From a virus: a stretch of 28,674 nt of DNA. Positions 5,864 through 26,462 of this stretch are shown piece by piece. The notes under the pieces are model-generated. The model was not told the DNA's origin, did no database searches, and was given only the letters and a program-made list of their open reading frames with translations. Positions within the stretch are counted from its first letter, which is position 1; each line of letters opens with the position of its first letter. The translations under genes and the position numbers were made by a program. The DNA lies in IMG/VR virus record IMGVR_UViG_3300017963_000643, positions 1 to 28,674 of that record. One strand, 5' to 3'.

Positions 5864-5890
5864 CTCAGTTACTCCCTCCGTCTCCTCCGC

Positions 5891-9958: not shown

Positions 9959-10211
9959 TGGCTTCCTCCTCCCTGAGAATTGTTACCGCCTTGCTCAAGA
10001 ACGACTTGATGTTGAACGTGGTGGTCTGCTTCAGCGGGGTGGCCGTGTCGCTCACTGTGATCTTGCCATTGCGCCAGTCCACCCCGGTCACCAGGAACGT
10101 GGTCCCGTCCCGGTCCACGTGCTTGCCCTTCAGCTTGTGCAGCTTGCCCACCTGGGCCGCATACACCTTGCCCTTGATCCTCTTCAACAGCCTGGCAGCC
10201 AGGTTATCCAC
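9942..10211 (-). CDS. Small hypothetical protein (GTG start)
   Basis: 89 residues from GTG 10211, overlapping the TAA of the rmlB-like gene in GTGGATAA and preceded by GGGGGAGG. It begins (M)DNLAARLLKRIKGKVYAAQV, basic and helical, followed by a beta-rich part with GKHVDRDGTTFLVTGVDW and GKITVSDTATPL that looks like a small barrel. It ends in a helix (FLSKAVTILREEE). Not recognised. Coupled on both sides within the head module. Confidence 0.6.
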   Translation of the reverse strand: MDNLAARLLKRIKGKVYAAQVGKLHKLKGKHVDRDGTTFLVTGVDWRNGKITVSDTATPLKQTTTFNIKSFLSKAVTILREEEANVGQE

Positions 10212-11208: not shown

Positions 11209-11212
11209 AGGG

Positions 11213-11934: not shown

Positions 11935-12128
11935 CACTTCTTCTCCTTCAGTAACTTCGTCACCGCTAGGTTAACCTTGTTTCTGTCTTCCGGTGACATC
12001 TGCAACATCAACAACGCCTCTGCATTGCCAAAATTCAACTCACCCGCCTTGACCGCCTTCCTGGCAACCCGGATCGCTGCGTCGGGATCGTCCCGCTTCA
12101 ATTTCAAAAGGTCATCCGCGTAACTCAT
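11934..12128 (-). CDS. 64-residue acidic/basic helical protein, possible partner of the MuF-peptidase
   Basis: Starts at ATG 12128 in an ATGA overlap with the MuF-metallopeptidase stop, with GGAGGGGC as SD. All predicted helix (DDLLKLKRDDPDAAIRVARK and NAEALLMLQMSPEDRNKV), no Cys, ending in KKLLKEKK-type basic residues. A 60-nt sample is 52 % GC, close to the peptidase half of the preceding gene and well below the flanks, so the two look co-inherited. A small gene directly behind a polymorphic effector domain is the usual place for an immunity or chaperone protein. That role is inference; I recognise no family. Confidence 0.6.
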   Translation of the reverse strand: MSYADDLLKLKRDDPDAAIRVARKAVKAGELNFGNAEALLMLQMSPEDRNKVNLAVTKLLKEKK

Positions 12129-14140
12129 GTCGCCCCTCCGTAGTAAATCTTCTTCGATCCGCCACTCTCGACAACCCACTCACTGAATACGTCGTCCAGT
12201 TCCTTCTTGAACTTCTTGTGAAGGTCGGCTGCTGCCTTTTTAGAAAGTCCCTTCGTGTACGAGGCAGGTAATTCAACCTCGTCCACGAACGACTTGACCA
12301 ACCGTTCCCATTTCCAGATCTCTTTACCGGGACCCATCTGCTTCTGGAACGCGTCGGTAATCACACTCATCACCTCCACGAATTCTTTGTGCTTCACCCT
12401 GACACTGAAGATCATAGGTGGTAGCCCCCCACCCTCTACTGAACCATGGATCTTCAAACCCGCCTTCTTCAATGCTATCCCCACCCTGTTCGCAATACGA
12501 TCTATATAGTCACCGTACGACGTGAATTGAGCCATCACATCGGCATTGATGTTGTACGTCTTCTTGATCAGTCTCATGCTTATCAAATCAGTTGCTGCTT
12601 CCTCCATTACGACACCCAACTCCTGATACCCCCAACCAAACCCACGGTTATATGAATGCACAGTCTCATGTACCAACGTATGCATCGAACTGATTGAATC
12701 CCGTGCACGGTCGCCTTGCAAAAACTTAGATGCTTCTTTCGCAGTGCCAGGATACATCTTGATCGTATCCGTCGCCGGCTCATATTGTGCAACGGCAGAA
12801 TGCTTCGTCCCCGTCTTGATATTTCTGGACACCCCCTTGTTGAACTCGTCCACAAAAATAGTCGAGCGTTCATTGGACATGCCAGTACCCTCGAACAACC
12901 GATCCAACTGCTCACGAAGTTCCGCCTGTTCCGCAGCCGACAGTTCCGACTTGCTCATCTTGTCCAACAACTCGGCGGTTCGTTTGTCGTCTAAGACTGC
13001 CGCCTTGTTCGTTTTCCTGGCCTTCCGCTTCAGCGCCTTCCCGGACAGCACCTCCCCGGTGGCCCGCTCGTACTCGCCCAACATGGACACCAGTTGCTTC
13101 CTCTCCACCATACCCAAGCTCTTTCCGTCTATCCCGTGCCGCATCAGATCCCTGACCGCCCGCCGGCCCACGTGCCTGCCTTCCAGCACATCGTCCACGC
13201 TCCAGATCGGCACGTCGTAGATCCCCTCCTTGGTAAGGAACTCGTTCAACTCGGCATTAGCCGCCTTTCTGGCCCGGATAGCCCCCTTGAGCTTTTCCCC
13301 GTCCGCCGTGGCTATCACCCGGCGGTTGGTGTTGATCTTCATGCGCAGGTCCTGGATGTACTTCTGCTCGTCCTCGGTGGGCAGGCGCATGCCTTTAGGG
13401 GGCGCCGGTCGCCGAAGCATCTCCACCAGACTCTGGTCCTTCTTCATGTCCAAGTCCCGCAGCTCCTGCACCTGCTGCTTGGACAGCTTGCCGGGCTGCA
13501 CGATCAGGCTGCACTCGCAGTTGCTCAGACACCTGGTGGCACCCGCCCTGGGAGTGGTCGGCAGGTCGGCCTTGGTATACGGGCTGTTGGAGGCCAGCAC
13601 CAGGCAGTCAGGGCAGTGCTCCGCGTGGCCCAGCTTCCACACGAACTGGCTGTCCATCGGAGCCGCCTCTACCCGAGCGTGGTCCCCTATCCCCTGCAGG
13701 GTCTGGGAATACATACCCACCCGCTGCTGCCTGGGCATCCGCAGGGTGTCGTTGTCGATATCGGTGCCGAACGCCCGGGCGTACTTCATCTCCTCGGCGG
13801 TGGCCCTCTTCAGGTACTCCAGGTCTCCCTCGTCCAGAGGGCGGCCCAGGTTGGCCTTGTACACCTGGGTGAAGTTGGTCTGGATGGCGTCCTGCATCCT
13901 GGTGTCGTAGGTGGCCAGGTTGATCTTGCCCGACTGCAGGTCCCCGGTGATCCCATCCAGCTGCTTGAAGTACCTGCCCTGCAGAGCGCTGGTATCCGCG
14001 GCCTCCATCCGGTAGGCTCGAACACCGGCCTGGTCGTCCACCCGAGCAATGGCCCGATCCACGGAGGCCAACAGTGCCGCCAGCTCCATGTCCGTCATAG
14101 CCTCCAGGGACTCCCTGGTTATATCTTGGGCTGCCCCCAT
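12125..14140 (-). CDS. MuF-type minor head protein fused to a C-terminal HExxH metallopeptidase
   Basis: 671 residues; SD GAAGAGGAGAGG. The N-terminal half is a phage head morphogenesis (Mu gpF/SPP1 gp7-like) domain with the typical GHAEHCPDC motif (H175, C176, C179) and CLSNCECSL (C204, C208, C210) about 172-212. MuF proteins bind near the portal and are packaged in the head. The C-terminal part from about residue 375 is different: it carries LVHETVHSYN with H491, E492 and H495, and MEEAATDL with E513/E514 as a likely third ligand, the pattern of a zinc metallopeptidase. GC falls from about 67-72 % to about 47-52 % at the same junction (near 13015), so the peptidase domain is probably a later acquisition. 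MuF proteins with swapped C-terminal toxin domains are known; the target here is unknown. Confidence 0.88.
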   Translation of the reverse strand: MGAAQDITRESLEAMTDMELAALLASVDRAIARVDDQAGVRAYRMEAADTSALQGRYFKQLDGITGDLQSGKINLATYDTRMQDAIQTNFTQVYKANLGRPLDEGDLEYLKRATAEEMKYARAFGTDIDNDTLRMPRQQRVGMYSQTLQGIGDHARVEAAPMDSQFVWKLGHAEHCPDCLVLASNSPYTKADLPTTPRAGATRCLSNCECSLIVQPGKLSKQQVQELRDLDMKKDQSLVEMLRRPAPPKGMRLPTEDEQKYIQDLRMKINTNRRVIATADGEKLKGAIRARKAANAELNEFLTKEGIYDVPIWSVDDVLEGRHVGRRAVRDLMRHGIDGKSLGMVERKQLVSMLGEYERATGEVLSGKALKRKARKTNKAAVLDDKRTAELLDKMSKSELSAAEQAELREQLDRLFEGTGMSNERSTIFVDEFNKGVSRNIKTGTKHSAVAQYEPATDTIKMYPGTAKEASKFLQGDRARDSISSMHTLVHETVHSYNRGFGWGYQELGVVMEEAATDLISMRLIKKTYNINADVMAQFTSYGDYIDRIANRVGIALKKAGLKIHGSVEGGGLPPMIFSVRVKHKEFVEVMSVITDAFQKQMGPGKEIWKWERLVKSFVDEVELPASYTKGLSKKAAADLHKKFKKELDDVFSEWVVESGGSKKIYYGGAT

Positions 14141-15006: not shown

Positions 15007-16686
15007 TCACCCCGCGTCGCGGTACGGCTTGTTGAGCCGCTCGCTCTGAACCACCATGATCATGTCCCTGATGTTGCTCAGCTCGTTGGCCAGCTCCATG
15101 TCCCGAAGCGCGTGCTCCCTGGTGAACGGCTGACCCCCTGGTAGTTGAGGGGCAACCTGGGCAGGCTCGGGTTCGGCCCGGATAGCCACAAGGATCTCCT
15201 CGATCTCGTCCTCCGGGATCTTGATGATGTTCTGCAACAGCCACCTGGTGGGCATCCGCAGGGCCGTCTTGGCCTGCCCTGCGATCTGCCACTTCAAGGC
15301 CTCCACCGTCATCTTCATCTGCTCATCCACGAAGCTGATGGGCGGATAGATCACCTCGTACAGGCCCTTGACCGGGGGGATTGCCATCATGGTCAATTGG
15401 AAGTCGTACACGCTCCGCTGGAACGCGGCCATCTCCCGCTGGATCTTCCTGAGCATCCGGGCGAACTCGATGTCCTGCCAGGACAAGGTGGCCTTGGCGT
15501 TCACGTCCCGTTCCACCCCCAAGTAGCTCTTGGGCACCCCGGTGGCCATGAAGATCTTGTTCTGGAAGTGCTCCACGTCCCGCAATTCCCCCAGGACCCC
15601 GGAGGCGGACAGGCGCTCCACCTTTGCCCCCTGCCCTTCAGGAGGCACGGTTATGTAGAAGTCGTTACCATCGGGAAGAGGCCTGGACCGGCTGTCGATC
15701 TGTCCGGTGCTGCTGTCCATCACATTGCGGCGCTTCAGGTTCCTCTTGGCCTCCAGGATCAGGTTCTTGAGCTTGGCAGGAGAGGCGTTCCTGGGGGCCG
15801 GAATGCTGAACACCAGGTGGTCATCCGCCCGGTTGACTCGAGTCATCAGGACCCCGTCCTCCATAGTGCGCAGGTACCTCCACGGCTTCCTGGCGTTGAA
15901 GTAGAAGGACCGCCCATACTGGCACCCCCGTTTGTGGTTGTGCCGCAGGTGCCGCACCTGCCAGAACTTGAAGTGGATCTCCTGGTGGCTCCCTTCCCGC
16001 TTCATGGTGAACGCCTCTTCCGCCTTGAGCCGACCGAACTCGTCCTCGTTGCGGTACATGTGCTTTTGATTGAGCCACTTGAGCCTGGTGATCAGGAACC
16101 GGTTGTCGACCACCACCTCCTCGAAGTCGTCCCCATAATGCAGCATGCCGTCGCAGATCCCGGGGATCTCGTTCTGCATGTTGGTCCGCTCGTCCACCCC
16201 TTCCAGAGCCGCCAGCACCCTGGGCACCTTACTGGCCAGCTTGTAGCTCTCCTCGTCTCCGTCCCGGCTGCTGAACACGTTGGACACCGTCACTTCCCGG
16301 GCCCTGGCCAGCTCCACACACTCGGCATCGATGTACTCGTAGTCCTGGTACCTGGCCATCCGGGTGTTGTCGATCTTCAGCTGGTCGTAGTACTCATCGC
16401 TGCGGATTCCGCCCTGGCTGCTGCCGGTGGCCCCGCCGACCTCCGAGGTACCCTCGTCGTCCGCCTGGTCGGTAACGTGTCTGCTCATCGGCCGGACGAA
16501 GGAGGCGATCCTCTGGATCAGGTTCTGCTTCCTGCGAATATCCCGGTCACTCAGCATCTCCCGCAGGTCCTCCATTCGGACCAGCGCCCGCTCCTCCTCG
16601 CTCCGGGTCTCGGGATTCACGTAGGTGTCCACCGGGTACTTCTGCCGGACTTCCCTCTCGGTAACAACGGGGCGCTTCTTGGCCAT
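15007..16686 (-). CDS. Portal protein, T4 gp20-like
   Basis: 559 residues, SD AAAGGAGCG. Forms the dodecameric ring at one head vertex that DNA passes through and on which the prohead nucleates. Matches gp20-type portals: GRSFYFNARKPWRYL (259-272), DDHLVFSIPAP (288-298), a NLILEAKRNLKRRNVMD helix with STGQI (308-330), the DFYITVPPEGQGAKVERL stretch (342-359) and GELRDVEHFQNKIFMATGVP (366-385). T4 gp20 itself is about 524 residues. The C-terminal 60 residues include a Pro/Gln-rich linker (PEPAQVAPQLPGG). Together with the gp21-like protease and gp23-like capsid it shows a T4-type head, and it opens the head module. Confidence 0.9.
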   Translation of the reverse strand: MAKKRPVVTEREVRQKYPVDTYVNPETRSEEERALVRMEDLREMLSDRDIRRKQNLIQRIASFVRPMSRHVTDQADDEGTSEVGGATGSSQGGIRSDEYYDQLKIDNTRMARYQDYEYIDAECVELARAREVTVSNVFSSRDGDEESYKLASKVPRVLAALEGVDERTNMQNEIPGICDGMLHYGDDFEEVVVDNRFLITRLKWLNQKHMYRNEDEFGRLKAEEAFTMKREGSHQEIHFKFWQVRHLRHNHKRGCQYGRSFYFNARKPWRYLRTMEDGVLMTRVNRADDHLVFSIPAPRNASPAKLKNLILEAKRNLKRRNVMDSSTGQIDSRSRPLPDGNDFYITVPPEGQGAKVERLSASGVLGELRDVEHFQNKIFMATGVPKSYLGVERDVNAKATLSWQDIEFARMLRKIQREMAAFQRSVYDFQLTMMAIPPVKGLYEVIYPPISFVDEQMKMTVEALKWQIAGQAKTALRMPTRWLLQNIIKIPEDEIEEILVAIRAEPEPAQVAPQLPGGQPFTREHALRDMELANELSNIRDMIMVVQSERLNKPYRDAG

Positions 16687-16701: not shown

Positions 16702-17301
16702 TTATGGGCTGATTATGCTTCCGCCTGGCTGCCCTGGTGCGGCCGGCTGTCCTAATCCCGCTCCCTGGGGCCTGACGCTACTCATCACCATGTGCCGGGT
16801 GACCGCCAGGATGTTGGCAGTGATCACGTTGAGCCACGCGTTGTGGAAGATGTACTCCAGCTGAGTGCCCCCGGGTAGTTCCTTCTTTTCGTCCAGCATG
16901 CGGCTACTCATGGACCCGTCCGGGTACACCGACAGCACGATCTCATACTTGGGCACCTGCCGGGCAGCGACCGCCTTCTTCTCCTTGGCGGCCAGCTTGC
17001 GGCGGTTCCTGTGGCTCCGCTCCAGCAGGTTCCACGACCCCTTGCAGCACTGGCCGAACTTGTTGCCGCTGCCGCACCCGCACTTGCTGTTGTTGGTAAG
17101 ACCGCCATAGATCCGCCGGAAGTTCTTGTAGTCGTTCTCGTGGATCACCTCGGTGCTCAGGGTCTCCAGCAGCCTGCCCAGGCTGCCGTCCTGGGCCCCA
17201 TGACAATTCACGATCTCGTGCCCGTGCAGCTTGTCTGTTAAACACTGTTTAACATCTCCCTCTTGGTTCTGGTCTGCCTGGACCGTCTCCTGTTCGTTCA
17301 T
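16702..17301 (-). CDS. SEC-C motif zinc protein
   Basis: 199 residues from ATG 17301, which is preceded by GGAGGAGCAGAG and overlaps the upstream stop as ATGA. Residues 74-86 (CGCGSGNKFGQCC) are a classical SEC-C zinc motif like the one at the SecA C-terminus, here with C74, C76, C85, C86. A basic helix (ERSHRNRRKLAAKEKK) follows, then a beta part with YEIVLSVYPDGS and a C-terminal Pro/Gly-rich tail (GAGLGQPAAPGQPGG). SEC-C proteins bind zinc and often protein or RNA partners; the partner is unknown. It sits directly ahead of the portal. The codons for DVKQCLTD contain the third copy of the palindrome, which is therefore inside a gene. Confidence 0.78.
   Translation of the reverse strand: MNEQETVQADQNQEGDVKQCLTDKLHGHEIVNCHGAQDGSLGRLLETLSTEVIHENDYKNFRRIYGGLTNNSKCGCGSGNKFGQCCKGSWNLLERSHRNRRKLAAKEKKAVAARQVPKYEIVLSVYPDGSMSSRMLDEKKELPGGTQLEYIFHNAWLNVITANILAVTRHMVMSSVRPQGAGLGQPAAPGQPGGSIISP
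17237..17253. promoter_or_regulatory. Palindrome copy 3, inside the SEC-C gene
   Basis: GTTAAACACTGTTTAAC, identical to copy 2, falls in codons 16-21 of the SEC-C gene and is read in frame. It is about 50 nt inside the gene. Keeping an exact 17-bp dyad within coding sequence suggests selection on the DNA or RNA rather than only on the protein. Confidence 0.5.
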
Positions 17302-17507
17302 CTCTGCTCCTCCGTCAATAAAGGGGGTTGGTCGGACCTGCAAGACTGCTCGTCCGATTTGCAGGATTGCCGCAGTAGCTTGGTGCACTTACGACCGTCC
17401 CAAAAAACACAAGGACCCGGGGCCTGGTCGGCGTCCGGGTATACCATTCCGTCCCTAGCCCACGACCGGGCCTCGGGACACCACCTTGCTCCATTGGGCC
17501 TGCTCAT
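17298..17507 (-). CDS. Small Cys-rich protein ahead of the SEC-C gene
   Basis: 69 residues; SD GGAGGAATC, ATG 17507, stop overlapping the SEC-C start. Cysteines at C10, C33, C41, C49 and C56 in a hydrophilic chain (MSRPNGARWCPEARSWARDG at the start; CVFWDGRKCTKLLRQSC later) suggest metal binding or disulfides. Not recognised. Probably co-translated with the SEC-C protein. Confidence 0.6.
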   Translation of the reverse strand: MSRPNGARWCPEARSWARDGMVYPDADQAPGPCVFWDGRKCTKLLRQSCKSDEQSCRSDQPPLLTEEQR

Positions 17508-17716
17508 TCCGATTCCTCCGGTAAATTGCGAAGCCAGGAGCGGCTAGAGGGGTTGGACCGCTCCTGGCTGCGCGACAACAGGAGTCGGCATGGCCAGGCA
17601 GTAACCATGCGGCTCACTAGGTCTGCGCCACTCTCTACCCGATGTTCGATGTCACTTCTTGCGCAGTAGGTGGGCCCGGTGTTTGAGCCCGTTGCACGTG
17701 AATTCCACCGTGTCAA
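17504..17716 (-). CDS. Uncertain small frame between methyltransferase and Cys-rich gene
   Basis: A 70-codon frame whose stop overlaps the next ATG as ATGA, the local habit. Its middle SDIEHRVESGADLV matches the C-terminus of the 91-residue protein at 9130 (EHLVESGGDLL), with several differences at silent positions. Against it: the first 65 nt overlap the methyltransferase in another frame, no good SD precedes the ATG, and two hairpins lie within it. A shorter start at GTG 17617 or ATG 17608 is possible. It may be a decayed remnant. Confidence 0.35.
   Translation of the reverse strand: MTRWNSRATGSNTGPTYCARSDIEHRVESGADLVSRMVTAWPCRLLLSRSQERSNPSSRSWLRNLPEESE
17532..17569 (-). other. Strong hairpin downstream of the methyltransferase
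   Basis: A 12-bp perfect stem (AGCCAGGAGCGG with CCGCTCCTGGCT) and a 14-nt loop. On the minus strand the stem is followed by TCGCAATTTACC, so there is no U-tract and it is not a standard terminator. A second small stem (GCATGG/CCATGC, about 17588-17610) lies next to it. Could be an RNA processing or stability element. Confidence 0.55.
17620..17648 (-). repeat. 29-bp repeated motif, copy 2
   Basis: Minus strand: CGAACATCGGGTAGAG, then AGTGGCGCAGACC. It lies just after the methyltransferase stop and 11 nt upstream of an ATG (17608). 25 of 29 positions equal copy 1. Confidence 0.6.
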
Positions 17717-18233
17717 CTCGCTCCAGTAGGTCCCCCTCCAGGCGGCTTATCCACGGGTCGGTCACACAACCCTCGCTCACGAACGAGGTGACCACCAGAC
17801 CGCCCTTCTTTAGCAGCCGGTCCACCGTAACCATGAACTGGTCCCACCTGGAATCGAAGTAGGGAAGCACCGCGGTCAAGACCAGGCAGTCGAACTTCCT
17901 GGTCCTCAACTGCAGGAAGTCCACTTGGCGGAACTCCAGCATCTCATCCAGGTCGCTGTAAGCCACCTTGGCCCGGGCAATGGCGGTCTGAGAAACGTCG
18001 ATCCCCACAGTGTGCTCGGCAGCGTCGCTAAGCACGTGAGTCAGGTAGCCCTCACCACATCCCACGTCGAGCAGGCGCCTGGCCAGCCCGAACTTGGTAT
18101 GGCGGGATACCAGAGCGGTGTACTGCTCTGCTCTGGCCACATGATCGTCCGTCTGGTACTTGAAGGGATCGGGGCCGGACTGGAAGAACTCCTCCATGGC
18201 CTCCGGGGAATGGTTCTTTGGCAGGTTGCCCAT
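17652..18233 (-). CDS. Class I SAM-dependent methyltransferase (NodS-like)
   Basis: 193 residues. The N-terminus has FFQSGPDPFKYQTDDHVARA as in NodS-like methyltransferases, then motif I LLDVGCGEGYL (54-64) with D56, G58, G60 and G62, the acidic ribose-binding D79 in VGIDVS, and VDFLQL and CLVLTAVLPYF for motifs near the active site. It should transfer a methyl group from S-adenosylmethionine; substrate unknown (small molecule, sugar or protein). NodS methylates a chitooligosaccharide, but similarity at this level does not fix the substrate. SD AAGGAGG partly lies in a hairpin (18244-18269), which suggests translational control. It is a single gene between the accessory run and the SEC-C/portal genes. 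Confidence 0.82.
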   Translation of the reverse strand: MGNLPKNHSPEAMEEFFQSGPDPFKYQTDDHVARAEQYTALVSRHTKFGLARRLLDVGCGEGYLTHVLSDAAEHTVGIDVSQTAIARAKVAYSDLDEMLEFRQVDFLQLRTRKFDCLVLTAVLPYFDSRWDQFMVTVDRLLKKGGLVVTSFVSEGCVTDPWISRLEGDLLERVDTVEFTCNGLKHRAHLLRKK

Positions 18234-18243
18234 CGAGCGCCTC

Positions 18244-18269
18244 CTTGCAGGTTCGTTTGTACCTGCAAG
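18244..18269 (-). promoter_or_regulatory. Hairpin that can mask the methyltransferase SD
   Basis: Perfect 9-bp stem (CTTGCAGGT with ACCTGCAAG, 8-nt loop). Its 3' arm ends in AAG, the first three bases of the SD AAGGAGG, 11 nt before ATG 18233. Folding would reduce ribosome access. The 5' arm touches the end of motif copy 3. Confidence 0.55.
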
Positions 18270-18296
18270 TCAGCGCCGTGCTCTACCTCATGTTCG
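18268..18296 (-). repeat. 29-bp repeated motif, copy 3
   Basis: Minus strand: CGAACATGAGGTAGAG, then CACGGCGCTGACT. It lies in the gap upstream of the methyltransferase. It could encode EHEVEHGAD in one frame, but that frame has an upstream stop and no start codon. Confidence 0.55.
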
Positions 18297-18334
18297 TTAT
18301 ATACTCCGTCTTGTACGTGCCATTGGTTCTCCCT

Positions 18335-18493
18335 TTAGGCAGTCTTTTCACTAGGCCGGCCCTGAAGGTCATTATTAAGGAGGCGCGCGATCTGATATTC
18401 CCTACAGACACAAATTCCAGTGGGCTCTTCATACCACCACGCATTTTGCTTGGGCAGCCGGTGTGGCTTGGTTTTTAGGTGTTTATTAGCCAT
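18335..18493 (-). CDS. 52-residue protein (WWYEEPTGICVCRE)
   Basis: A short gene, easily missed. ATG 18493 comes 3 nt after the preceding stop, with an excellent SD (AAAGGAGAC). It reads MANKHLKTKPHRLPKQNAWW at the start, then YEEPTGICVCREYQIARLLN. The NAWWYEEPTGICVC pattern resembles small phage proteins of unknown function I have seen before. The two Cys (C28, C30) may bind metal. It ends the low-GC accessory run; 98 nt of non-coding sequence that holds the motif and hairpin follow before the methyltransferase SD. Confidence 0.7.
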   Translation of the reverse strand: MANKHLKTKPHRLPKQNAWWYEEPTGICVCREYQIARLLNNDLQGRPSEKTA

Positions 18494-18496
18494 TAC

Positions 18497-19027
18497 TTAG
18501 TCTCCTTTGGTCTTTCTCCTGAGTTTGCGCTTTCTGTATGGCAACTGGTCTTGCACCTCTCGCAAGACAGACATTGCGTCTTGCAGCTTTCTCTTGTCGG
18601 AGGGGTCAAGCCCCCAGTTTTCAGCCAATCGCCAAAGCGTTGTTCGGGCCTGTATCGCCTGAACCTGAGTGGGGGGCGTGTTGCTCATGTCTATTTCTCC
18701 TTCGGTGGGCATGGGCTCGCATTGTGTACAGAATTGGTTTCTTCCTGTGGGGGTTGGGGTTTGTCTGGCACCATGCCGATCCCGTTTTTCCTCAATGGTC
18801 ATCGCAGGAGCCCCGCAACTGCAACATGCATCTCCATCGTACCAACAGTCACAATGTCTTCCGTCTCTGCGCTCCTGGCATGCTTCGCCTGGAAGAACTT
18901 CGCAAACAGAATCTAATGCCTCTTTGATGTACTGCGGATTGAATCCTTCTGCGTTTATGACTACCCAGAGGCACTGTCTGGCCTTGTCTAGCGCTTTCCT
19001 CTGTTTCTCACAGTTTTCACAACTCAT
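18497..19027 (-). CDS. Cys-rich protein, probable zinc binder, with an internal start
   Basis: 176 residues from ATG 19027 (ATGA overlap). N-terminal MSCENCEKQRKALDKARQCL is a CxxC plus helix. A Cys cluster (CDCWYDGDACCSCG) is followed by CTQC, so two zinc sites are likely in the first 105 residues. The last 63 residues start at an internal ATG (18688) with its own strong SD (AAGGAG, 8 nt away) and form a basic helical protein ending in KRKLRRKTKGD. That segment may also be made alone, or the frame may be a fusion of two genes. Lower GC than the head genes (40 % in the 60 nt around its stop). Function unknown. Confidence 0.65.
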   Translation of the reverse strand: MSCENCEKQRKALDKARQCLWVVINAEGFNPQYIKEALDSVCEVLPGEACQERRDGRHCDCWYDGDACCSCGAPAMTIEEKRDRHGARQTPTPTGRNQFCTQCEPMPTEGEIDMSNTPPTQVQAIQARTTLWRLAENWGLDPSDKRKLQDAMSVLREVQDQLPYRKRKLRRKTKGD

Positions 19028-20088
19028 TTGCTTTCTCCCTCTGGCTTCTGGCATTCGGGGCAATCAAAATCCGCATCACTCAGGGGAACCTTGTGGTGAC
19101 ACCAATTGACCTTACCCGTACCCCCGCATGTCTTGCATGGGGGTTGGTCTTGGGGTTGGTCTTGGGGTTGGTCTTGGGGCTGGAGGGCTTGCTTGGCCTG
19201 GGGCAGCACCGTATCCACCAAGCTCCACCATTGCGCTTCAAGGTTGGCACCCCTCTTGATGTATTCCTCGCGCTTCATAATCTCAGCTATCAAACTAATC
19301 AATGCCTCCCGGGTCTTGCAGTTCATGACCCCTCCCCGTTTACCCTCAAGTTTTTCGCAACTGTGACATGCCTCCAGCACCTTACGGTATCTGTCTAGTT
19401 GAAACTTCATTCTCCGTACATCGTCATAGCTCGCAGAGTACCCGTAGTCTCCCGGCTTGATTTCGTCTCCCGAATACCCCAGGGCCGCTACCCCACATCC
19501 CGCAAGCCTGACACGCTCTTGCTCTAGCTCTTTCTCAGTGGAGTGGAGTTTGGCTTCTGCTGTGTACTTTGCCGCGAGTGCGTTCAATCTCTGCTCGTTC
19601 GTTTCCTTCCATATTCTGGTGTCCATCACCTTGGCCTCACCAGCCATCACCCTGTTGAGCAAGGCCAACTCTGCCAGGTCCTCTTTCGCCTGCGGTAAAT
19701 GCTCGGCCAGCTTATCCAGGTTCGGTGTTTCCCTTGTGACCTCCAACTCCCCCTGTAGCCTTTCTACCTCTGCCTTGAGTCCCTCGATGGTTTCCTTGAC
19801 AGGCCGCGCCCCATTCCAGTCGGCCTTCCCGGTGCCAGATGCCTGCAAGCACTCGTTGACAGTCGCTCGCTGCGACCGGGCTTCTGTGGCATGCGTTTGC
19901 GCCTCCAGCTTGAGTCGATCAACCAGCGCCCCTAGCCTTTCTACCTCTGCTAATAGGGCGGGGATGTCGGTGCGAGCGTGGGCTATGAATTCGGCATCCG
20001 CAATATCTGTCGCCTCTTCCCACCACCACGGTCCCGGCGTTGCCGCTTCCGCCCTTGCTCGGATCTCTTCTATTTCTTGGGGGGTCAT
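19024..20088 (-). CDS. Ea22-like coiled-coil protein with C-terminal zinc motif
   Basis: 354 residues from ATG 20088, one nt after the neighbour's stop. It begins MTPQEIEEIRARAEAATPGP and has WWWEEATDIADAEFIAHART and ALLAEVERL, the pattern of Ea22-like/hypothetical proteins common in phages. A long coiled coil follows (about 60-290), with paired cysteines in CHSCEKLEG. The C-terminus has a four-fold QPQD-type repeat (QPQDQPQDQPQDQP), then CKTCGGTGKVNW and CPEC, a DnaJ-type zinc finger pattern. Role unknown; such proteins are usually early or accessory. The SD is weak, so it may depend on coupling to the upstream gene. Confidence 0.68.
   Translation of the reverse strand: MTPQEIEEIRARAEAATPGPWWWEEATDIADAEFIAHARTDIPALLAEVERLGALVDRLKLEAQTHATEARSQRATVNECLQASGTGKADWNGARPVKETIEGLKAEVERLQGELEVTRETPNLDKLAEHLPQAKEDLAELALLNRVMAGEAKVMDTRIWKETNEQRLNALAAKYTAEAKLHSTEKELEQERVRLAGCGVAALGYSGDEIKPGDYGYSASYDDVRRMKFQLDRYRKVLEACHSCEKLEGKRGGVMNCKTREALISLIAEIMKREEYIKRGANLEAQWWSLVDTVLPQAKQALQPQDQPQDQPQDQPPCKTCGGTGKVNWCHHKVPLSDADFDCPECQKPEGESK
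19142..19177. repeat. Three tandem 12-bp repeats (GGTTGGTCTTGG)
   Basis: Three perfect copies in a row encode the QDQP units in the Ea22-like protein. Copy number could vary by slippage. Confidence 0.85.
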
Positions 20089-20089
20089 T

Positions 20090-20341
20090 TCAATATTCCC
20101 TTTTGGCAATTCTGGCGAATATGTGCCCATTTGCTGCCATCTCATCTTTGCAGTCATCACACCAGCACAAGGGGCAGTCGTCACACATCGGAACAAACTC
20201 CGCCATCAACGTATCGTTCCACCAGAAGCCGCAATCATGTTCTGTGCCTGCGTCTGTTTCTGTCACTTTTAGATGTCTGCAGGTCTGGGCCGGTTTGTCT
20301 CCACAACGGCCACACATTCGTACCGATTTTTTGGGGGTCAT
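20090..20341 (-). CDS. Small Cys-rich zinc-type protein
   Basis: 83 residues; SD GGGAGGAATC, ATGA overlap with the upstream stop. It starts MTPKKSVRMCGRCGDKPAQT and has CGRC, TCRHL, then CDDCPLCWCDDC near the C-terminus, enough for two zinc sites. WWNDTLMAEFVPMCDDC suits a compact metal-bound fold. Not recognised. One of many Cys-rich small genes in the accessory run. Confidence 0.65.
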   Translation of the reverse strand: MTPKKSVRMCGRCGDKPAQTCRHLKVTETDAGTEHDCGFWWNDTLMAEFVPMCDDCPLCWCDDCKDEMAANGHIFARIAKREY

Positions 20342-20617
20342 GATTCCTCCCTGGGTAGGGCTTGGGCTAGCTGGCAGTCAGGAGTGTGCTTCCCCCCTCG
20401 CTCAAGAAACCCGCACGCTGGGCATTTCCCATAATCACGTTCCACAGTAAGTGCTGTCATGTCTGTACCACCCCAGCCACCAGCCCACTCCACCTCTTCC
20501 AACGCATCCCATGCAGACAAGAGGGCGTCGCAAATATCGGGAAAATTCGTTCTGTCGTGACCCCACCCCTTGAGATCTACCCTTGCGGGCTTTTACCTCT
20601 TTCCTTGTTAGCTTCAT
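20338..20617 (-). pseudogene. Small CPAC protein split by an apparent frameshift
   Basis: The start at ATG 20617 (ATGA overlap) reads MKLTRKEVKARKGRSQGVGS, typical of a phage helical start. But the protein-like continuation is in another frame: RVDLKGWGHDRTNFPDICDA, then LLSAWDALEEVEW, and a zinc-type KCPACGFLERGGKHTPDC up to the stop at 20338. That frame has a stop upstream and no ATG or GTG in its first part, so a one-base shift near 20580-20600 joins the two. Either it is a real frameshift (mutation or programmed), an assembly error, or the second frame begins at ATG 20460. If joined, the product would be about 92 residues. Confidence 0.5.
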
Positions 20618-20835
20618 GATATCTTCTCTGGATGCAGGTAGGAATCTCGCTCAAACTCACTCACCACCCATTCATATATTTTGACCGCCATGGCTTCGGC
20701 TCTTGCCAGTGTGGTCGAATCCGGCAGAATCGCCCAGAGCAGGTTATTGATCTGCTGCTTGGTGTCCTCCTGTATTTTGGTCTGCATGTCCTGCTCAAGA
20801 AATTCATCAAACGTCTGGTTACTGTCTGCCTTCAT
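20614..20835 (-). CDS. Small protein, paralog of the gene at 21360
   Basis: 73 residues from ATG 20835 (GGAGGAATC; ATGA overlap). The core INNLLWAILPDSTTLARAEA, then KIYEWVVSEFE, matches INELVWVCLPATTTLGRAER and EIYDVLRNEYE in the 68-residue gene at 21360..21566, so the two arose by duplication. All helical; no Cys, unlike the paralog. Function unknown. Confidence 0.65.
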   Translation of the reverse strand: MKADSNQTFDEFLEQDMQTKIQEDTKQQINNLLWAILPDSTTLARAEAMAVKIYEWVVSEFERDSYLHPEKIS

Positions 20836-21359
20836 GATTCCTCCGGGTACTTCTTGCCGGTTCCTTGGCAGGTTGGGCATGGCCTGAAAATATATTCCGA
20901 CTTCCCGCCCGAGCTACAGGTCGCCCAACCGTAGCCATCCTCTTTGTGCAAGCAATCCTTCTTGGCAAAGAGTTCACAGCGAGGCACCCCGGTTTGGGGA
21001 TCCTCGTAGCATGGGTGTCGATGCTCAGATTTTATTCCATCGCCGCCCACACCACAGCATATGGAGCAGGGCACCTCCCCCTTGACCCTTGCGAGTTCTG
21101 ATCGGAGCTTGTCTATTTCGTTGTTGCGAATCTCCAGTGCATCCCATAACTCCTTGACGGCAACCTCTTGTTGGCTTGCATATATTCCAGATGCAAATTT
21201 CTGATAATCCATTTCTCTATACGCATCCCTCAGTACCCGGAAGGCTCTGCGCTCTTTGCACTCCAGGCTAGATGCCGGTCTTGACTCAAACCAACGCGTT
21301 TTGCACCTGCGTTCACTCCGATCCCACCACGGGCAATCACCGCATGTCTTGGTTGCCAT
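20832..21359 (-). CDS. Cys-rich multi-zinc protein between the two paralogs
   Basis: 175 residues starting directly after the neighbour's TAG. It begins MATKTCGDCPWWDRSERRCK, a metal-binding start seen in many phage proteins. The middle is a coiled coil (NNEIDKLRSELARVKGE). Then come CSICCGVGGDG, HPCYED, RCELFAKKDC and PCPTCQGTGKKYP, the last a DnaJ-like CxxCxGxG zinc finger. Several zinc ions are expected. Role unknown; RNA, DNA or protein contact are all possible. Confidence 0.68.
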   Translation of the reverse strand: MATKTCGDCPWWDRSERRCKTRWFESRPASSLECKERRAFRVLRDAYREMDYQKFASGIYASQQEVAVKELWDALEIRNNEIDKLRSELARVKGEVPCSICCGVGGDGIKSEHRHPCYEDPQTGVPRCELFAKKDCLHKEDGYGWATCSSGGKSEYIFRPCPTCQGTGKKYPEES

Positions 21360-21566
21360 CTAGTCCTCGCTGTCTGCATTCTGTGATTCGTATTCATTAC
21401 GAAGCACATCGTAGATTTCACACGCGATTCTTTCTGCCCGGCCAAGCGTAGTAGTGGCTGGTAGACACACCCAAACAAGCTCGTTGATCTTCTCTTTGGT
21501 GTAGTCTGGCATGTTGTAATGACAGTCTGTGCTCTGTAGCATTTGAACATCTCTTGAATCTTTCAT
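21360..21566 (-). CDS. Small protein, paralog of the gene at 20614
   Basis: 68 residues; SD AGGAGGGTTGAGGG. It reads MKDSRDVQMLQSTDCHYNMP at the start, then KINELVWVCLPATTTLGRAE and a Glu/Asp-rich tail. It shares the IN-x-L-x-W-x-x-LP-x-x-TTL-x-RAE pattern with the gene at 20614. It is the first gene after the terminase, 40 nt away, and starts the lower-GC accessory run. Confidence 0.65.
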   Translation of the reverse strand: MKDSRDVQMLQSTDCHYNMPDYTKEKINELVWVCLPATTTLGRAERIACEIYDVLRNEYESQNADSED

Positions 21567-21606
21567 CCCTCAACCCTCCTGAAAAGAGATCACCCACACC
21601 CAGGGG

Positions 21607-23742
21607 CTACCCATTCCTTTCCTCCTCTTCCTTCTTCATGATCTCATACAGCCTCTCCAGATTGCCGGACTTCAGCAACTCTCCCTTCCTGTACTCCCTC
21701 TCGCCTTTGCTCTCCTCGGGATCCCCGCGACCGGACGCGAACTGCCCGGTCTCCAGGGACTGCTGCGCGTAGGTCTCCGCCAAGAACACCGCCCGTGCGA
21801 GCGCGTCACTGGCGTCCTTCCCGTAGGGGCCCTTTATAATCTTCTCCACCGGCTGGCCGTTCCTGACCGTGCCGTCGTTGAACCTCTGCAGTCCGGCCAG
21901 CTGTTCCTCCATCGGGGGGTAAGGGTACGCACTGATCCTACGCTCGGTGTACGCCCTCTTGGTCCACTCGTACGGAACCACGCTGGTGTCCGTGCTCACG
22001 ATCTCCCAGTCGAACCCCATCTTCTCCAAGGGCTGCGACAGGCTCACCCGCTCGAATGTGTCGAAGCCCACACGGTCGACGGAGAACCCCATGTCCCGGA
22101 ACACATTGACCAGATCCAACAGCGCGTCGTACGGGACCTCCCCTCCTGGGGGCGGACGGATCAGCAGGGCCAGGTCCACCCACAGCCTGGGCACCAACTC
22201 CCTGACAGCCTCCTTATTCTCATCCACCGCCGCTATCTTACCCATGCGCAACCGCTCCACGAACCCGTCCACCCCCACCACGCAGAACCCGGAGGCCGCC
22301 CCGCTGATGCTCGTGTCTATCCCGATGTACCTGGGCATATCCGGTTTGCGGATCGGCCTCCACTCTCCCTCCGGCTCCTTGGGATCCACCGGCCTGGCCA
22401 GCCTGTCCTTTATCAGGAACACACCGTCGTGGAAGTCGGTGGTCTCCTCGGTGTAAGGGTGCAGACAAACCTCCCGCGGAACCATAGGCGGGTTCGCAGT
22501 GCGATGACAGTCCACTATCACCGACTTGTCGTCGAACAGCATGTTGGTCCCCTCGGTAGGCAGGCCGATCACCTGCCGTATAAACATCAGGGTGTCCGCA
22601 GTCGCCTTGTCTACCCACATACCACCGGCCCGGGGACACTCCACCACCCGCTGAATCTCCTGTGGATCCGCCCCTGACGCCTCCATTAGGCGACCGTTCT
22701 TGGCGATCTCCTCGGCCACCTGCCGGTCCTCTATAACCTGGGCGGACTGAGTCCTGGTGGGAAGCACCACCCAAAACACGTCGTCCATGTCGTACTCGTC
22801 CAGCTTAGTCTCCCACTCACTGTGCGCGTACACCTTGGCCCGACATCTGCCGGTATCCACGTCGGGGATGGTGAGCCCCTTCTTCTCCACCTCCGTCGCC
22901 CGCTTCTCGGTGAAGCTATTGGGGACGGTCTCCCGACACAGCACCACCACCTTGCACGGGAGCGGCATTATACCCCCTTCATCCTTGACCAGGTACCTGG
23001 TCATCATCCTGGTGGTCGCGCTGTCATACACAGTCTGCGCCTCGTCGTACCTCACCTGGCCCGGATCGGAGCGTTTGCTCTTGTCCACCACGTCGTACAG
23101 GTTGGCCTCGTCCAGAACCACAAAAATCAGGTTTTCGGACTCCGCCGCCGTCTTGCTGGCTCCCGCAAACCTGACGAACACGTTCTTGGGCAGCCGTATC
23201 TCGTTGACCAGCCGAACAGGGTCCTCCATCGGGAAGTCCTGCTGGTTCATGAAGTACGGCGCAGACATCATCATCTGCTTCAGCTCACGGAAGTACGCCG
23301 CCTTGGCCTTTTCCTTGGTTACATTCAAGGACATGTACAGAATCTGCGCGGTGGTGGCCATCTTGCGAAACGCCTTCTGGGGAGTCCCGTAGCAGCCGAT
23401 CAGGTGGATGCTGTACATCTCGACTGCGGCCGTAAGATACGTTTTTCCCCAACCAATGCTACCGCGCAGTATCAACTCGAATACCCGCTGCTCGTACACC
23501 TCGCAGAAGTGATCCTTTATCAGGTCGTATGCGTCATCGGCCAGGTGACCACAGAAGTACGGGTTGTCGATCCACTCACGAGGAGACAGGGGCGTCCGGT
23601 CCTCCCTGGCGCGTTCCTCCGCCTCCCTCTGCTGCTGAACAGTGGCCAGCTTGACGGACCGATGCCGGTCCTCCCGAATCTTCAACAGGTTCAGGTGGTC
23701 GTCTTCACCAATCACCTTCCGGAACGCTTCCCAGTCAGCCAC
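21607..23742 (-). CDS. Terminase large subunit
   Basis: 711 residues from GTG 23742. It is the packaging motor: an ATPase that pumps DNA through the portal and a nuclease that cuts the concatemer. The Walker A is GSIGWGKT (94-101, K100 and T101) and the Walker B is FVVLDEAN (D211, E212). The C-terminal RNase H-like nuclease shows IGIDTSISG (D476), GFDTFE (D561) and GKDASDALA (D643 or D646). A region of about 190 residues between the domains (about 275-465) is longer than in small terminases. The N-terminus is charged and helical. No obvious small terminase is next to it; the 57-residue membrane gene just upstream overlaps its start by 8 nt. It is followed by accessory genes rather than the portal, which is less usual. 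Confidence 0.9.
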   Translation of the reverse strand: MADWEAFRKVIGEDDHLNLLKIREDRHRSVKLATVQQQREAEERAREDRTPLSPREWIDNPYFCGHLADDAYDLIKDHFCEVYEQRVFELILRGSIGWGKTYLTAAVEMYSIHLIGCYGTPQKAFRKMATTAQILYMSLNVTKEKAKAAYFRELKQMMMSAPYFMNQQDFPMEDPVRLVNEIRLPKNVFVRFAGASKTAAESENLIFVVLDEANLYDVVDKSKRSDPGQVRYDEAQTVYDSATTRMMTRYLVKDEGGIMPLPCKVVVLCRETVPNSFTEKRATEVEKKGLTIPDVDTGRCRAKVYAHSEWETKLDEYDMDDVFWVVLPTRTQSAQVIEDRQVAEEIAKNGRLMEASGADPQEIQRVVECPRAGGMWVDKATADTLMFIRQVIGLPTEGTNMLFDDKSVIVDCHRTANPPMVPREVCLHPYTEETTDFHDGVFLIKDRLARPVDPKEPEGEWRPIRKPDMPRYIGIDTSISGAASGFCVVGVDGFVERLRMGKIAAVDENKEAVRELVPRLWVDLALLIRPPPGGEVPYDALLDLVNVFRDMGFSVDRVGFDTFERVSLSQPLEKMGFDWEIVSTDTSVVPYEWTKRAYTERRISAYPYPPMEEQLAGLQRFNDGTVRNGQPVEKIIKGPYGKDASDALARAVFLAETYAQQSLETGQFASGRGDPEESKGEREYRKGELLKSGNLERLYEIMKKEEEERNG

Positions 23743-23908
23743 TCGTTCTACCCCCGTGTTTTCCGAATGTCCATCCTATCACCCACCCAGTCGTCCCTCC
23801 CAATAACGGCCAAGTCCACGACGGTAAGCCCACATAGTATCCGAACACCACGATGCCAAAACCTGCCAACAGTCCGACACCAACAGCCCATATAAAAAAT
23901 CTGATCAC
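23735..23908 (-). CDS. 57-residue protein with two membrane helices (GTG start)
   Basis: From GTG 23908 with SD GAAGGAG. (M)IRFFIWAVGVGLLAGFGIVV and WPLLGGTTGWVIGW are two hydrophobic segments, so an inner-membrane protein is likely. Not recognised. Phage two-helix proteins near packaging or lysis genes can be holins or unrelated; with no lysis enzyme nearby I do not call it a holin. Confidence 0.55.
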   Translation of the reverse strand: MIRFFIWAVGVGLLAGFGIVVFGYYVGLPSWTWPLLGGTTGWVIGWTFGKHGGRTSG

Positions 23909-23927
23909 TCGATCTCCTTCAGGTACT
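23909..23927. repeat. 19-bp duplicated start/stop junction, copy 1
   Basis: TCGATCTCCTTCAGGTACT, identical to 24135-24153. It contains the SD for the gene at 23735. Confidence 0.7.
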
Positions 23928-24134
23928 CGTAGGGATCGACCTTCCACTCCTCAATCGGCACCACTCACCACAGCACTTGCACCGGACCCAGGCCGGCCGG
24001 TGAGACATGGTCACGTCCTTGCGCTCGTGTTTGCCAGGGGGTTTGTCGTTGCACAGATGACAGACCTTGTCGCCCTTGTTGCCTTGGAACGTCATCCGAC
24101 AGTAGATGCAGTTGCATCGATACTTGCTGCTCAT
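23919..24134 (-). CDS. Small double zinc-ribbon protein
   Basis: 71 residues; SD GAAGGAG, ATGA overlap. Cys at 7, 9, 12 (CNCIYC), then VCHLC, and in the second half CKCCGEWC, so two zinc sites are likely. It starts MSSKYRCNCIYCRMTFQGNK. Its 3' end runs into one copy of the duplicated 19-bp junction, so its last residues may have been set by that duplication. Function unknown. Confidence 0.62.
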   Translation of the reverse strand: MSSKYRCNCIYCRMTFQGNKGDKVCHLCNDKPPGKHERKDVTMSHRPAWVRCKCCGEWCRLRSGRSIPTST

Positions 24135-24778: not shown

Positions 24779-25032
24779 TTCACCGGGCTCTCCAGCGCCC
24801 GCCTGGCCACCGCGCCCCGGTCCCTCTGTATCTTGCCGGTGACCAGCTCCTCCGTCAGCAGGTTGATCGTGATCTGGTAGTCTGCCGGGTCGGTGTAGAA
24901 CGTCAACGCAGTCCTCAGACGGACCACCTCACACGTCCAACACAACCCATTCGGGATATTCCCTACACCGGGGATCACCGCCCGGTTGTGGTCGTTCAAC
25001 TCGCAGCCGCACACTTCACATTCGGTTCCCAT
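24775..25032 (-). CDS. Small zinc-type protein
   Basis: 85 residues; SD GGGAGGATG. MGTECEVCGCELNDHNRAVI begins with CEVCGC, and GLCWTCEVVRLR supplies the second CxxC, so one zinc is likely. The rest is helical. It overlaps the preceding gene by 17 nt. Function unknown. Confidence 0.6.
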   Translation of the reverse strand: MGTECEVCGCELNDHNRAVIPGVGNIPNGLCWTCEVVRLRTALTFYTDPADYQITINLLTEELVTGKIQRDRGAVARRALESPVK

Positions 25033-25222
25033 GAGAACATCCTCCCAACGTGGTACAGAACTGACAATCCTTGCAAGCCAACTTCAAGATTTCCTGCTTG
25101 CAGTCCAGCCCGTGATACTCCTTCAGGTCGGCAATCGCTTCATCGGTAGTCGTCGCGCACACCTTGCCACCAGCACTGACCAATTCGTGCGTGTGACCCT
25201 TGCGCCTCCACTGCCTTTCCAT
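25016..25222 (-). CDS. Small Cys protein, paralog of the gene at 26032
   Basis: 68 residues from ATG 25222 (SD GAGGAGG; TGATG overlap). MERQWRRKGHTHELVSAGGK, then VCATTTDEAIADLKEY and LACKDCQFC. It shares W-x-R, ELVS, G-x-VCA, DEA, D and Y, and AC-x-x-C with the 81-residue protein at 26032..26277, so the pair is homologous. One zinc site is likely. Function unknown. Confidence 0.62.
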   Translation of the reverse strand: MERQWRRKGHTHELVSAGGKVCATTTDEAIADLKEYHGLDCKQEILKLACKDCQFCTTLGGCSHGNRM

Positions 25223-25401
25223 CAATCCTCCTCAGCCAGCACAATCTTGATGCCTTCCCGGATTCCGTTGATGGTCTGTCGCCGGATACTCGGTTCTCTT
25301 ACTGTGCACAAGTCACCCAGCTTCTCGTTCACCTTCTCCAGCACGCCCTCCAGCCGCTCGACCCTCGGGTGCTTCTCCTCCACGTCGGACACCTCGAACA
25401 T
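25222..25401 (-). CDS. 59-residue helical protein
   Basis: ATG 25401 with SD GGAGGCACC; stop overlapping the next ATG. MFEVSDVEEKHPRVERLEGV, then LEKVNEKLGDLC and IREGIKIVLAEED: two charged helices. Nearly all third codon positions in the first half are G or C, which marks this frame as real where it overlaps the end of the preceding frame by 89 nt. Confidence 0.62.
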   Translation of the reverse strand: MFEVSDVEEKHPRVERLEGVLEKVNEKLGDLCTVREPSIRRQTINGIREGIKIVLAEED

Positions 25402-25754: not shown

Positions 25755-26035
25755 CGTCTGAACCACCTGCGCCACCACGGCAGGCGTCTGAACCTCCACT
25801 CGGCCGGAATCACCTCGCAGAACAACCAACCGCCCAGCGACGACGGAGGCAACGGCCTCAACCCCAACCCGTCCAGCACGACGCCCTCAAGCTCTGCCGC
25901 GACGCTCACCGCCAGGAGCATCACCAGGTCCTCGCTGATCCAAGTCTCCAGCGATGCCTCCTCGACCGTCCACTTGGCGACGAGCCTGCGCCGGGTGGAT
26001 GCTATCTGCCCGACCTTCACGTTCAGGGCGGTCAT
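25751..26035 (-). CDS. Small hypothetical protein
   Basis: 94 residues, ATGA overlap with the preceding stop. MTALNVKVGQIASTRRRLVA, then a helix with LETWISEDLVMLLAVSVAAE and a C-terminus rich in Trp and Arg (RFRRLPWWRRWFRR). The ending may contact membrane or nucleic acid. Not recognised. Confidence 0.55.
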   Translation of the reverse strand: MTALNVKVGQIASTRRRLVAKWTVEEASLETWISEDLVMLLAVSVAAELEGVVLDGLGLRPLPPSSLGGWLFCEVIPAEWRFRRLPWWRRWFRR

Positions 26036-26277
26036 CGCCGCATCACCCGGTCAGTGCAGCCGTCCCGGCCGAACGGATTCTTAAAATTGTACCGACACCG
26101 ACGACAGGCCTTCTTCTCGACGTGCTCCTTGGCCTGCTCCGCCACACCCTCGTACTTCCGCGAGTCCATCACCGCCTCGTCCGCTACCCAAGCGCACACC
26201 CTTCCCACCCGACTGACCAGCTCCCACTGGTTCTTGTCGTCGTTGCGCTTCCACTTCTTCTCGAATTCGGCGGTCAT
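26032..26277 (-). CDS. Small Cys protein, paralog of the gene at 25016
   Basis: 81 residues from ATG 26277 (ATGA overlap; the frame is open further up inside the neighbour). MTAEFEKKWKRNDDKNQWEL, VSRVGRVCAWVADEA, then ACRRCRYNF and a final Cys. Homologous to the 68-residue protein at 25016 by the shared ELVS, VCA, DEA and AC-x-x-C positions. One zinc is likely. Confidence 0.6.
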   Translation of the reverse strand: MTAEFEKKWKRNDDKNQWELVSRVGRVCAWVADEAVMDSRKYEGVAEQAKEHVEKKACRRCRYNFKNPFGRDGCTDRVMRR

Positions 26278-26462
26278 CTCAGTCTCGTCACGGTTATCTG
26301 AATGAGCGGACACCACTCAGGGAACTCGTCGTCGGTCACGATGCTTCTCATGTCCAACCCAGGATAGCTGCACTCGTCATGATAGACCACATCGTCGTAA
26401 TGCCTGAACGGGCAGTCCATGCACCGCTTGACAATAACCTGGGGTGTTGCTTCCTCGTTCAT
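26274..26462 (-). CDS. Small phage protein with CMDCPF/WCPL motifs
   Basis: 62 residues. MNEEATPQVIVKRCMDCPFR, ECSYPGLDM, then FPEWCPLIQITV. The CxxCPF...C...P...WCPL layout recurs in small phage proteins I know, of unknown function; four Cys should bind one zinc. ATGA overlap on both sides. Confidence 0.68.
   Translation of the reverse strand: MNEEATPQVIVKRCMDCPFRHYDDVVYHDECSYPGLDMRSIVTDDEFPEWCPLIQITVTRLR

Follow-up and report, generated by a model that had tools for sequence, protein, structure and literature searches.

The question raised by this locus is why a chain of small genes with a lowered GC content lies between the gene for the large terminase subunit (terL) and the capsid genes of an uncultured phage. 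The locus is in a 28,674-base virus record (IMGVR_UViG_3300017963_000643), here called the window, and positions are those of the window unless a relative is named. A first-pass annotation had described 18290-21600 as a low-GC accessory block between terminase and portal, and our analysis confirmed that such a block is present. We consider it probable that these genes form an accessory cassette of the moron type, which entered a variable slot between terL and the capsid genes of this phage clade either at once or in steps. We base this on the composition of the block, the coupling of its genes as judged by their spacing, the variability of the slot in three lineages, the presence of its gene families elsewhere in relatives, and a stem-loop whose position the three lineages share. 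We infer a horizontal origin for the block.

Sequences compared

The window overlaps a second contig, IMGVR_UViG_3300017971_007887 (71,522 bases). The overlap aligned with one mismatch and no gaps over 17,065 nucleotides (nt) through locus L002, and with no mismatches over 20,939 nt through L003; from this alignment, contig bases 1-22,927 were worked out to be window positions 5748-28674. The remaining 48.6 kb of the contig (L006-L008) were scanned for GC content as three separate pieces. Close-protein scans of viral contigs, with terL, the portal protein and the 354-amino-acid (aa) block protein as queries, returned only the overlapping contig. Alignment scans identified the two nearest lineages, L014/L015 (42-43% identity in terL) and L094/L095 (39%), and contigs of 61.8 kb (L015) and 55.8 kb (L095) were searched. 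The terL of Vibrio SIO-2-like phages, the nearest cultured relatives by this gene, is about 27% identical. A wider set consisted of the best 80 of 340 relatives from the terL scan, plus other loci; dereplication at 95% terL identity reduced 95 terL loci to 72 lineages, with this phage counted. Two scans of genome contigs, made with hosts in mind, returned no relative. In the gene-by-gene comparison of the lineages, phmmer matches near E 1e-4 were given no weight because out-of-frame open reading frames (ORFs) produced equally good ones.

A chain of eight low-GC genes follows terL

The block genes span 18335-21566, and all genes around them are on the minus strand. They are listed below after terL, in the direction of reading.

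21607-23742, minus strand: terL, the upstream border of the slot (phrog_9 E 6e-9; phrog_2 E 7e-7)
21360-21566, minus strand: 68-aa protein, paralog 1, first block gene (paralog of 20614-20835)
20832-21359, minus strand: 175-aa cysteine-rich protein with a CxxCPWW start and a CxxCxGTG end (relative at L015 4228-4701, 31% identity)
20614-20835, minus strand: 73-aa protein, paralog 2 (paralog of 21360-21566)
20338-20617, minus strand: probably frame-disrupted gene with a zinc-ribbon-like end (frame of the ATG at 20617 against a remainder in the +1 frame)
20090-20341, minus strand: 83-aa cysteine-rich protein (ORF with a Shine-Dalgarno sequence and a 4-nt overlap with the previous stop)
19024-20088, minus strand: 354-aa protein whose N-terminal part is weakly Ea22-like, with QDQP repeats and a cysteine-rich tail (phrog_722 E 1e-14; phrog_1667 E 6e-9)
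18497-19027, minus strand: 176-aa cysteine-rich protein with an internal ATG and Shine-Dalgarno sequence at 18688 (partial match to phage Tunturi_4)
18335-18493, minus strand: 52-aa basic protein, last block gene (ORF with a Shine-Dalgarno sequence, 3 nt after the previous stop)

The first of these genes begins 40 nt after terL, and the order is 68 aa, 175 aa, 73 aa, the disrupted gene, 83 aa, 354 aa, 176 aa and 52 aa. Along the block the stop-to-start distances are 0, -4, -4, -4, 1, -4 and 3 nt. Spacing is wider beyond it: 101 nt with a stem-loop, a methyltransferase gene, 144 nt with a second stem-loop, then a gene for a 69-aa protein, a gene for a SEC-C-motif protein, and the portal gene. 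The block thus lies in the terminase-portal interval, as the first-pass annotation had it, but does not adjoin the portal, since the methyltransferase, 69-aa and SEC-C genes intervene.

The GC content of 18290-21600 is 0.529, compared to 0.605 for terL, 0.619 for the portal gene and 0.602 for the whole window. None of 508 stretches of 3,311 nt in the window (50-nt grid), and none of 775 in L006-L008, was as GC-poor, so that at 3.3 kb the block is the GC minimum of both the window and the remainder of the overlapping contig. The 60-nt samples that had drawn attention to the region were reproduced (0.40 and 0.467). GC content at third codon positions (GC3) is 0.49-0.63 in the eight block genes. 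Outside the block it is 0.82 in terL, 0.80 in the methyltransferase gene, 0.67 in the 69-aa gene, 0.82 in the SEC-C gene, 0.88 in the portal gene and 0.81-0.87 in the next head genes. The block thus has the composition expected of a moron, in GC (0.529 against about 0.61) as well as in GC3 (0.49-0.63 against 0.67-0.88). Among 18 lineages with a terL-portal gap longer than 200 nt, the drop in GC between gap and flanks was largest in this phage (0.55 against 0.61 and 0.62), followed by L094 (0.45 against 0.50 and 0.48). Two nearby sequences are exceptions in GC3: the C-terminal part of a head protein gene at 12125-13030 (0.62) and the ORF at 23735-23947.

The slot varies among relatives

The SEC-C gene, the portal gene and the next head genes are collinear in the window, L015 and L095, and the distance from terL to the portal gene differs: 4,920 nt here, 1,273 nt in L014/L015 and 1,395 nt in L094/L095. 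In L015 the slot holds a lipoprotein-like gene (judged from sequence) and a weak counterpart of the 69-aa gene; in L095 it holds a gene for a membrane-type protein (likewise judged) and a small ORF. Neither the eight-gene block nor the methyltransferase gene is in the slot of either relative, and the L015 and L095 contigs gave no match to the 354-aa, 176-aa or methyltransferase proteins. The same block in the same order in all relatives, an outcome that the first-pass annotation had named as contrary to its proposal, was looked for and not found in these two nearest lineages; the interval is variable. Compared with both lineages, this phage has extra genes between otherwise collinear core genes, as morons do. 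The three lineages together present a locus of about 1-5 kb with high turnover and differing content between conserved genes, the pattern of P2-type hotspots.

Members of the block families were found elsewhere. L015 carries three of them, all upstream of terL: two belong to the paralog family and one to the 175-aa family. Conversely, the gene in the L015 slot is related to genes upstream of terL in L095 (E 9e-12) and in this phage (L006 2267-2686, E 1.5e-9). Judged by these similarities, members of one family can lie before terL in one lineage and after it in another. The paralog family has a fifth member in a 221-kb phage contig, where the 16-kb stretch examined (GC 0.41) had no other match among the 18 window proteins compared.

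A portal gene was detected in 46 of the 72 terL lineages, including this phage. The gap was at most 60 nt in 26 of them, 61-500 nt in nine, 501-1,500 nt in six and 1,501-3,000 nt in four; at 4,920 nt, the gap in this phage is the largest among detected pairs only. The other 26 lineages, left out of this count, comprise seven with less than 6.5 kb of sequence after terL and 19 with 8.6-10.0 kb. In RcTiptonus, the portal model missed a portal gene annotated 2.1 kb after terL.

A stem-loop marks the distal end of the slot

Two stem-loops flank the methyltransferase gene.

17528-17573, minus strand: distal stem-loop of the slot, very stable (-38.8 kcal/mol over 71 nt; z -6.6; stability matched by 0 of 200 shuffles)
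18237-18276, minus strand: stem-loop containing the methyltransferase gene's Shine-Dalgarno region (-29.5 kcal/mol over 63 nt; z -4.6; likewise 0 of 200 shuffles)

The distal stem-loop ranked first of 5,725 when 50-nt single hairpins were compared on the coding strand of the window. Hairpins at the matching place ranked first of 4,374 windows in L015 and second of 4,405 in L095, with z-scores of -3.9 and -4.9, respectively (1 of 300 shuffles as stable in each). The distance from the end of the hairpin to the presumed next start codon is 20 nt in this phage, 29 nt in L015 and 23 nt in L095, the start codons having been picked by Shine-Dalgarno sequence and, in L015, also by similarity. The sequence directly after the stem-loop is AATTTACC in the window, TCCTTTTT in L015 and ACTATTTT in L095. 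Among 16 further relatives with a gap of more than 300 nt, the strongest hairpin was in the gap in three (L056, L047 and L011), inside open frames. The pattern is limited to the three lineages of this clade.

These features suggest a mechanism in which eight small, translationally coupled genes of lower GC content were added between terL and the capsid operon, in a slot that would be closed by the strong stem-loop immediately ahead of the SEC-C-portal operon and its first gene. As the slot ends at a strong stem-loop, the block genes most likely share the transcript of terL and stay out of that of the capsid genes, and the stem-loop would act as a terminator or a processing site. The stem-loop at 18237-18276 could block translation of the methyltransferase gene in read-through transcripts.

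It is possible, although we hold it to be somewhat improbable, that the clade keeps a dedicated exchange slot. Such a slot would be accessible from the terL side, while at its other end a positionally conserved stem-loop would shield the capsid operon from read-through, so that small genes could be swapped across terL without disturbing head assembly, with the second stem-loop keeping the methyltransferase silent in read-through transcripts. If the stem-loop is a transcript boundary, boundaries of this kind could help predict where phages tolerate new genes.

Elsewhere in the window, a near-perfect stem-loop with a T-rich tail between two genes at 5820-5869 (-31.9 kcal/mol) is the second strongest on the coding strand and is probably a terminator.

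Weighing the explanations

Several observations weigh against an added cassette that is set off from the capsid transcript. The distal stem-loop leads the hairpin at 5820-5869 by only 0.1 kcal/mol, it has no clear U-tract, and if more upstream starts are chosen the stem-loops of all three lineages fall inside a mechanically called ORF. By the narrow definition first used, a moron carries a promoter and a terminator of its own. Consensus scans found promoter-like sites not in excess (2, with 3.4 expected; the consensus may not be the host's promoter type) and terminator-like sites at the expected number (9, with 8.8 expected), neither stem-loop flanking the methyltransferase gene being listed among the latter. 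No repeats or mobility gene mark the ends of the block. Low GC3 is also found outside it: the ORF at 23735-23947, which abuts terL upstream, has a GC3 of only 0.47, and 16 of 20 ORFs picked mechanically in the small-gene cluster of L015 have a GC3 of 0.57-0.73. Lowered GC3 is therefore partly a property of such small genes. Moreover, the slot is resolved in three lineages, which leaves gain here and loss elsewhere unpolarized. Finally, the annotated portal genes of SIO-2 and Vibrio phage 1.215.A lie 8.7 and 8.4 kb after terL, with only their first 109 and 354 nt, respectively, inside the stretch examined. Because SIO-2-like gaps are this long, adjacency of terL and portal need not be ancestral. 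The first-pass annotation had noted that the two genes are adjacent in many phages; that holds for the 26 of 46 lineages with short gaps, but 19 lineages had no detected portal within 8.6-10.0 kb and SIO-2 and 1.215.A have distant portals. Adjacency is common and not the rule.

One alternative is that the common ancestor had a long, filled slot that was emptied separately in L015 and L095, the low GC3 reflecting weak codon selection on poorly expressed small genes. Consistent with this, L015 retains relatives of three block genes (the two paralog-family ORFs and the one of 175-aa type), though upstream of terL; its small genes also have lowered GC3, and SIO-2-like phages have a long interval of their own. 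On the other hand, wherever a portal was detected, more than half of the lineages show a gap of 60 nt or less after terL, the L095 contig has no match to the paralog family or to the 176-aa, 354-aa and methyltransferase proteins, and of 10 ORFs taken from immediately before terL in this phage, 9 have a GC3 of 0.66-0.87, above that of the block. On balance we think an ancestral block unlikely. Rather less likely still is a defence or anti-defence island, in which the small genes would inhibit host restriction, CRISPR or competing phages. The position in a variable slot would suit it, as the available text on P2-like phages describes such a locus holding defence genes (PMC9122126), and part of the 176-aa protein (residues 58-83) is similar to a small Tunturi_4 gene whose neighbor is annotated "superinfection immunity protein". 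The first-pass proposal of defence or anti-defence content was not borne out, however: none of the eight block proteins (the disrupted gene taken as its open part, 20338-20592) had a PADLOC match at E 0.01 or a Pfam or NCBIfam match at the curated cut-offs, and PHROGs gave no support for defence or anti-restriction content. PADLOC matches were found only in the flanks, for the SEC-C protein (E 4e-4 or weaker) and the methyltransferase (E 1e-16, model mad2). That the block products assist terminase or portal in packaging seems very improbable. The block adjoins terL and is on the same strand as terL and portal, but it is missing from the slot of both nearest relatives, and its families lie away from packaging genes in L015 and in the stretch of the 221-kb contig.

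Some further candidates were rejected. Insertion of a mobile element was considered, and the block has no transposase, integrase or HNH match, no tRNA, no Rfam RNA and, in 20 of the 22 repeat families, no exact repeat at its two ends. Another candidate was an exchange site at the 13-nt gene junction GGAGGAATCATGA; it has two exact copies (0.07 expected), and we read both as a Shine-Dalgarno sequence plus a 4-nt overlap. The methyltransferase start and 20859-20880 share an imperfect 22-nt repeat, which we attribute to chance.

Comparison with known systems

A moron-type cassette between terL and portal is of a kind already known, and this member is new. In Bacillus phage SPP1, gp2 is terL and gp6 is the portal protein. 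ORFs 3-5, between gp2 and gp6, are described in the available text of PMC6316719 as morons, unconserved genes that break the usual late gene order, and moron genes there mostly encode proteins of fewer than 100 aa. The present locus shares the position and differs in having eight coupled genes plus a methyltransferase gene, a drop in GC3, a distal stem-loop, and family members elsewhere in a relative.

As far as the available part of PMC9122126 describes it, the variable old/tin locus of P2-like phages lies between gpA and the portal gene gpQ, next to cos. It resembles the present slot as a high-turnover locus of about 1-5 kb between conserved genes and beside the portal, and differs in holding defence genes; no defence gene was recognized here. 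The moron of Shigella phage SfIV, in the available text of PMC3851460, similarly has a lower GC content than the rest of the phage, whereas it lies between Q and the lysis genes and carries an IS1 transposase; no transposase was recognized in the block. The present locus adds a worked example from an uncultured phage group, in which gene families precede the terminase gene in some lineages and follow it in others, and the slot is bounded by a stem-loop in three.

Proteins encoded by the block

With low certainty, we suggest that the two-helix, zinc-ribbon-like and coiled-coil-like products of the block are dispensable host-interaction or regulatory factors, because of the gene class and because no structural, enzymatic or defence match was recognized.

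The features predicted for individual genes mostly stood. The 68-aa (21360-21566) and 73-aa (20614-20835) proteins are a paralog pair as proposed (42.6% identity over 47 aa, E 3e-9), and a model of the 68-aa protein from a four-sequence alignment has two helices (residues 21-34 and 41-66; mean predicted local distance difference test score, pLDDT, 77.9). This two-helix pair and the CPWW protein had nothing at the Pfam or NCBIfam cut-offs and no PADLOC match. Translations agree with the proposed cysteine-rich small proteins at 20832-21359, 20338-20592, 20090-20341 and 18497-19027 and in the tail of 19024-20088. The cysteine pairs of the 175-, 83- and 176-aa proteins and of the disrupted gene appear zinc-ribbon-like, with no match at curated cut-offs.

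A frameshifted gene had also been suspected, and at 20338-20617 the N-terminus and the protein-like remainder are indeed in different frames: translation from the ATG at 20617 begins with MKLTRKEV, and the protein-like rest, 20592-20338, is read in the +1 frame, where no start is possible ahead of a TTG at 20520 that lacks a Shine-Dalgarno sequence. The disruption is identical in the two overlapping contigs, which may share reads. An intact gene with a late internal start is possible instead. The phages collection yielded no relative by which to judge programmed +1 frameshifting.

The 354-aa protein had been called Ea22-like. Its N-terminal part matches phrog_722, phrog_1667 and phrog_4029, and lambda Ea22 (described in the available text of PMC10834534) also matches phrog_1667 and phrog_4029, weakly. 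This weak N-terminal resemblance stands, but the protein had no match to PF13935 (Ead/Ea22) at E 1, whereas the lambda Ea22 control matched PF13935 at 1e-28 and had phrog_250 as its best match. A 12-nt tandem repeat of 3.7 copies at 19140-19183 encodes the QDQP repeats.

The similarity of the 176-aa protein to Tunturiibacter phage Tunturi_4 covers its residues 58-83 and half of a 52-aa gene product of that phage (69% over 26 aa, E 1e-3). Because of this match and the internal start with a Shine-Dalgarno sequence at 18688, the ORF may be small genes run together, although this evidence is thin. In the phages collection there was a single weak match for the 176-aa query, and the methyltransferase query returned three records at 28-30%; no match was found there for the 354-aa query (E 1e-3) or for the 175-, 88-, 83- and 84-aa queries (E 1), the 84-aa query being the open part of the disrupted gene. 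The 52-aa basic protein had no Pfam, PHROG or NCBIfam match at E 1.

Flanking genes and other observations

The genes between the block and the head operon, and the portal gene, are as follows.

17652-18233, minus strand: class I S-adenosylmethionine-dependent methyltransferase, outside the low-GC block (PF08241 E 5e-16)
17298-17507, minus strand: 69-aa protein gene before the SEC-C gene (weak L015 counterpart; E 4e-6, 3e-3 and 1e-3 in three comparisons)
16702-17301, minus strand: SEC-C-motif protein adjoining the portal, found in both relatives (E 7e-14 and 8e-10)
15007-16686, minus strand: portal protein (PF07230 Portal_T4 E 6e-33; 44% identity to L015 and 48-49% to L095)

The L015 counterpart of the 69-aa gene is also backed by its position beside the SEC-C gene. 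NCBIfam matches of the SEC-C protein were of SEC-C type, all below cut-off.

The portal gene of L095 (13475-16297) has an intein-like insert within a conserved portal stretch, with an Intein_splicing match of E 1e-8 (score 35.5, just below the cut-off of 35.8) and a weak HNH match (HNH_3, E 6e-3). The 671-aa head protein at 12125-14140 has a GC3 of 0.87 in its N-terminal part, and its C-terminal part (12125-13030) carries an HExxH motif (HETVH). L015 and L095 homologs align only to about residue 370, leaving the C-terminal part uncovered, and there is no Pfam match; this part has the look of a domain added later and may be a metalloprotease. A nucleotide-sugar dehydratase/epimerase gene (GDP_Man_Dehyd, E 2e-63) is located amid the capsid genes of the window (10204-11277) and of L015 (17209-18165), with no match in the L095 stretch.

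A basic leader, MARK[KRQ]A, is shared by many different proteins in the window and L006-L008, with eight exact starts and three near variants, a count given without a chance expectation; they include several L006 genes, L007 and window position 5747. A second pair of small paralogs is encoded upstream of terL, at 25016-25231 and 26032-26316 (E 4e-10).

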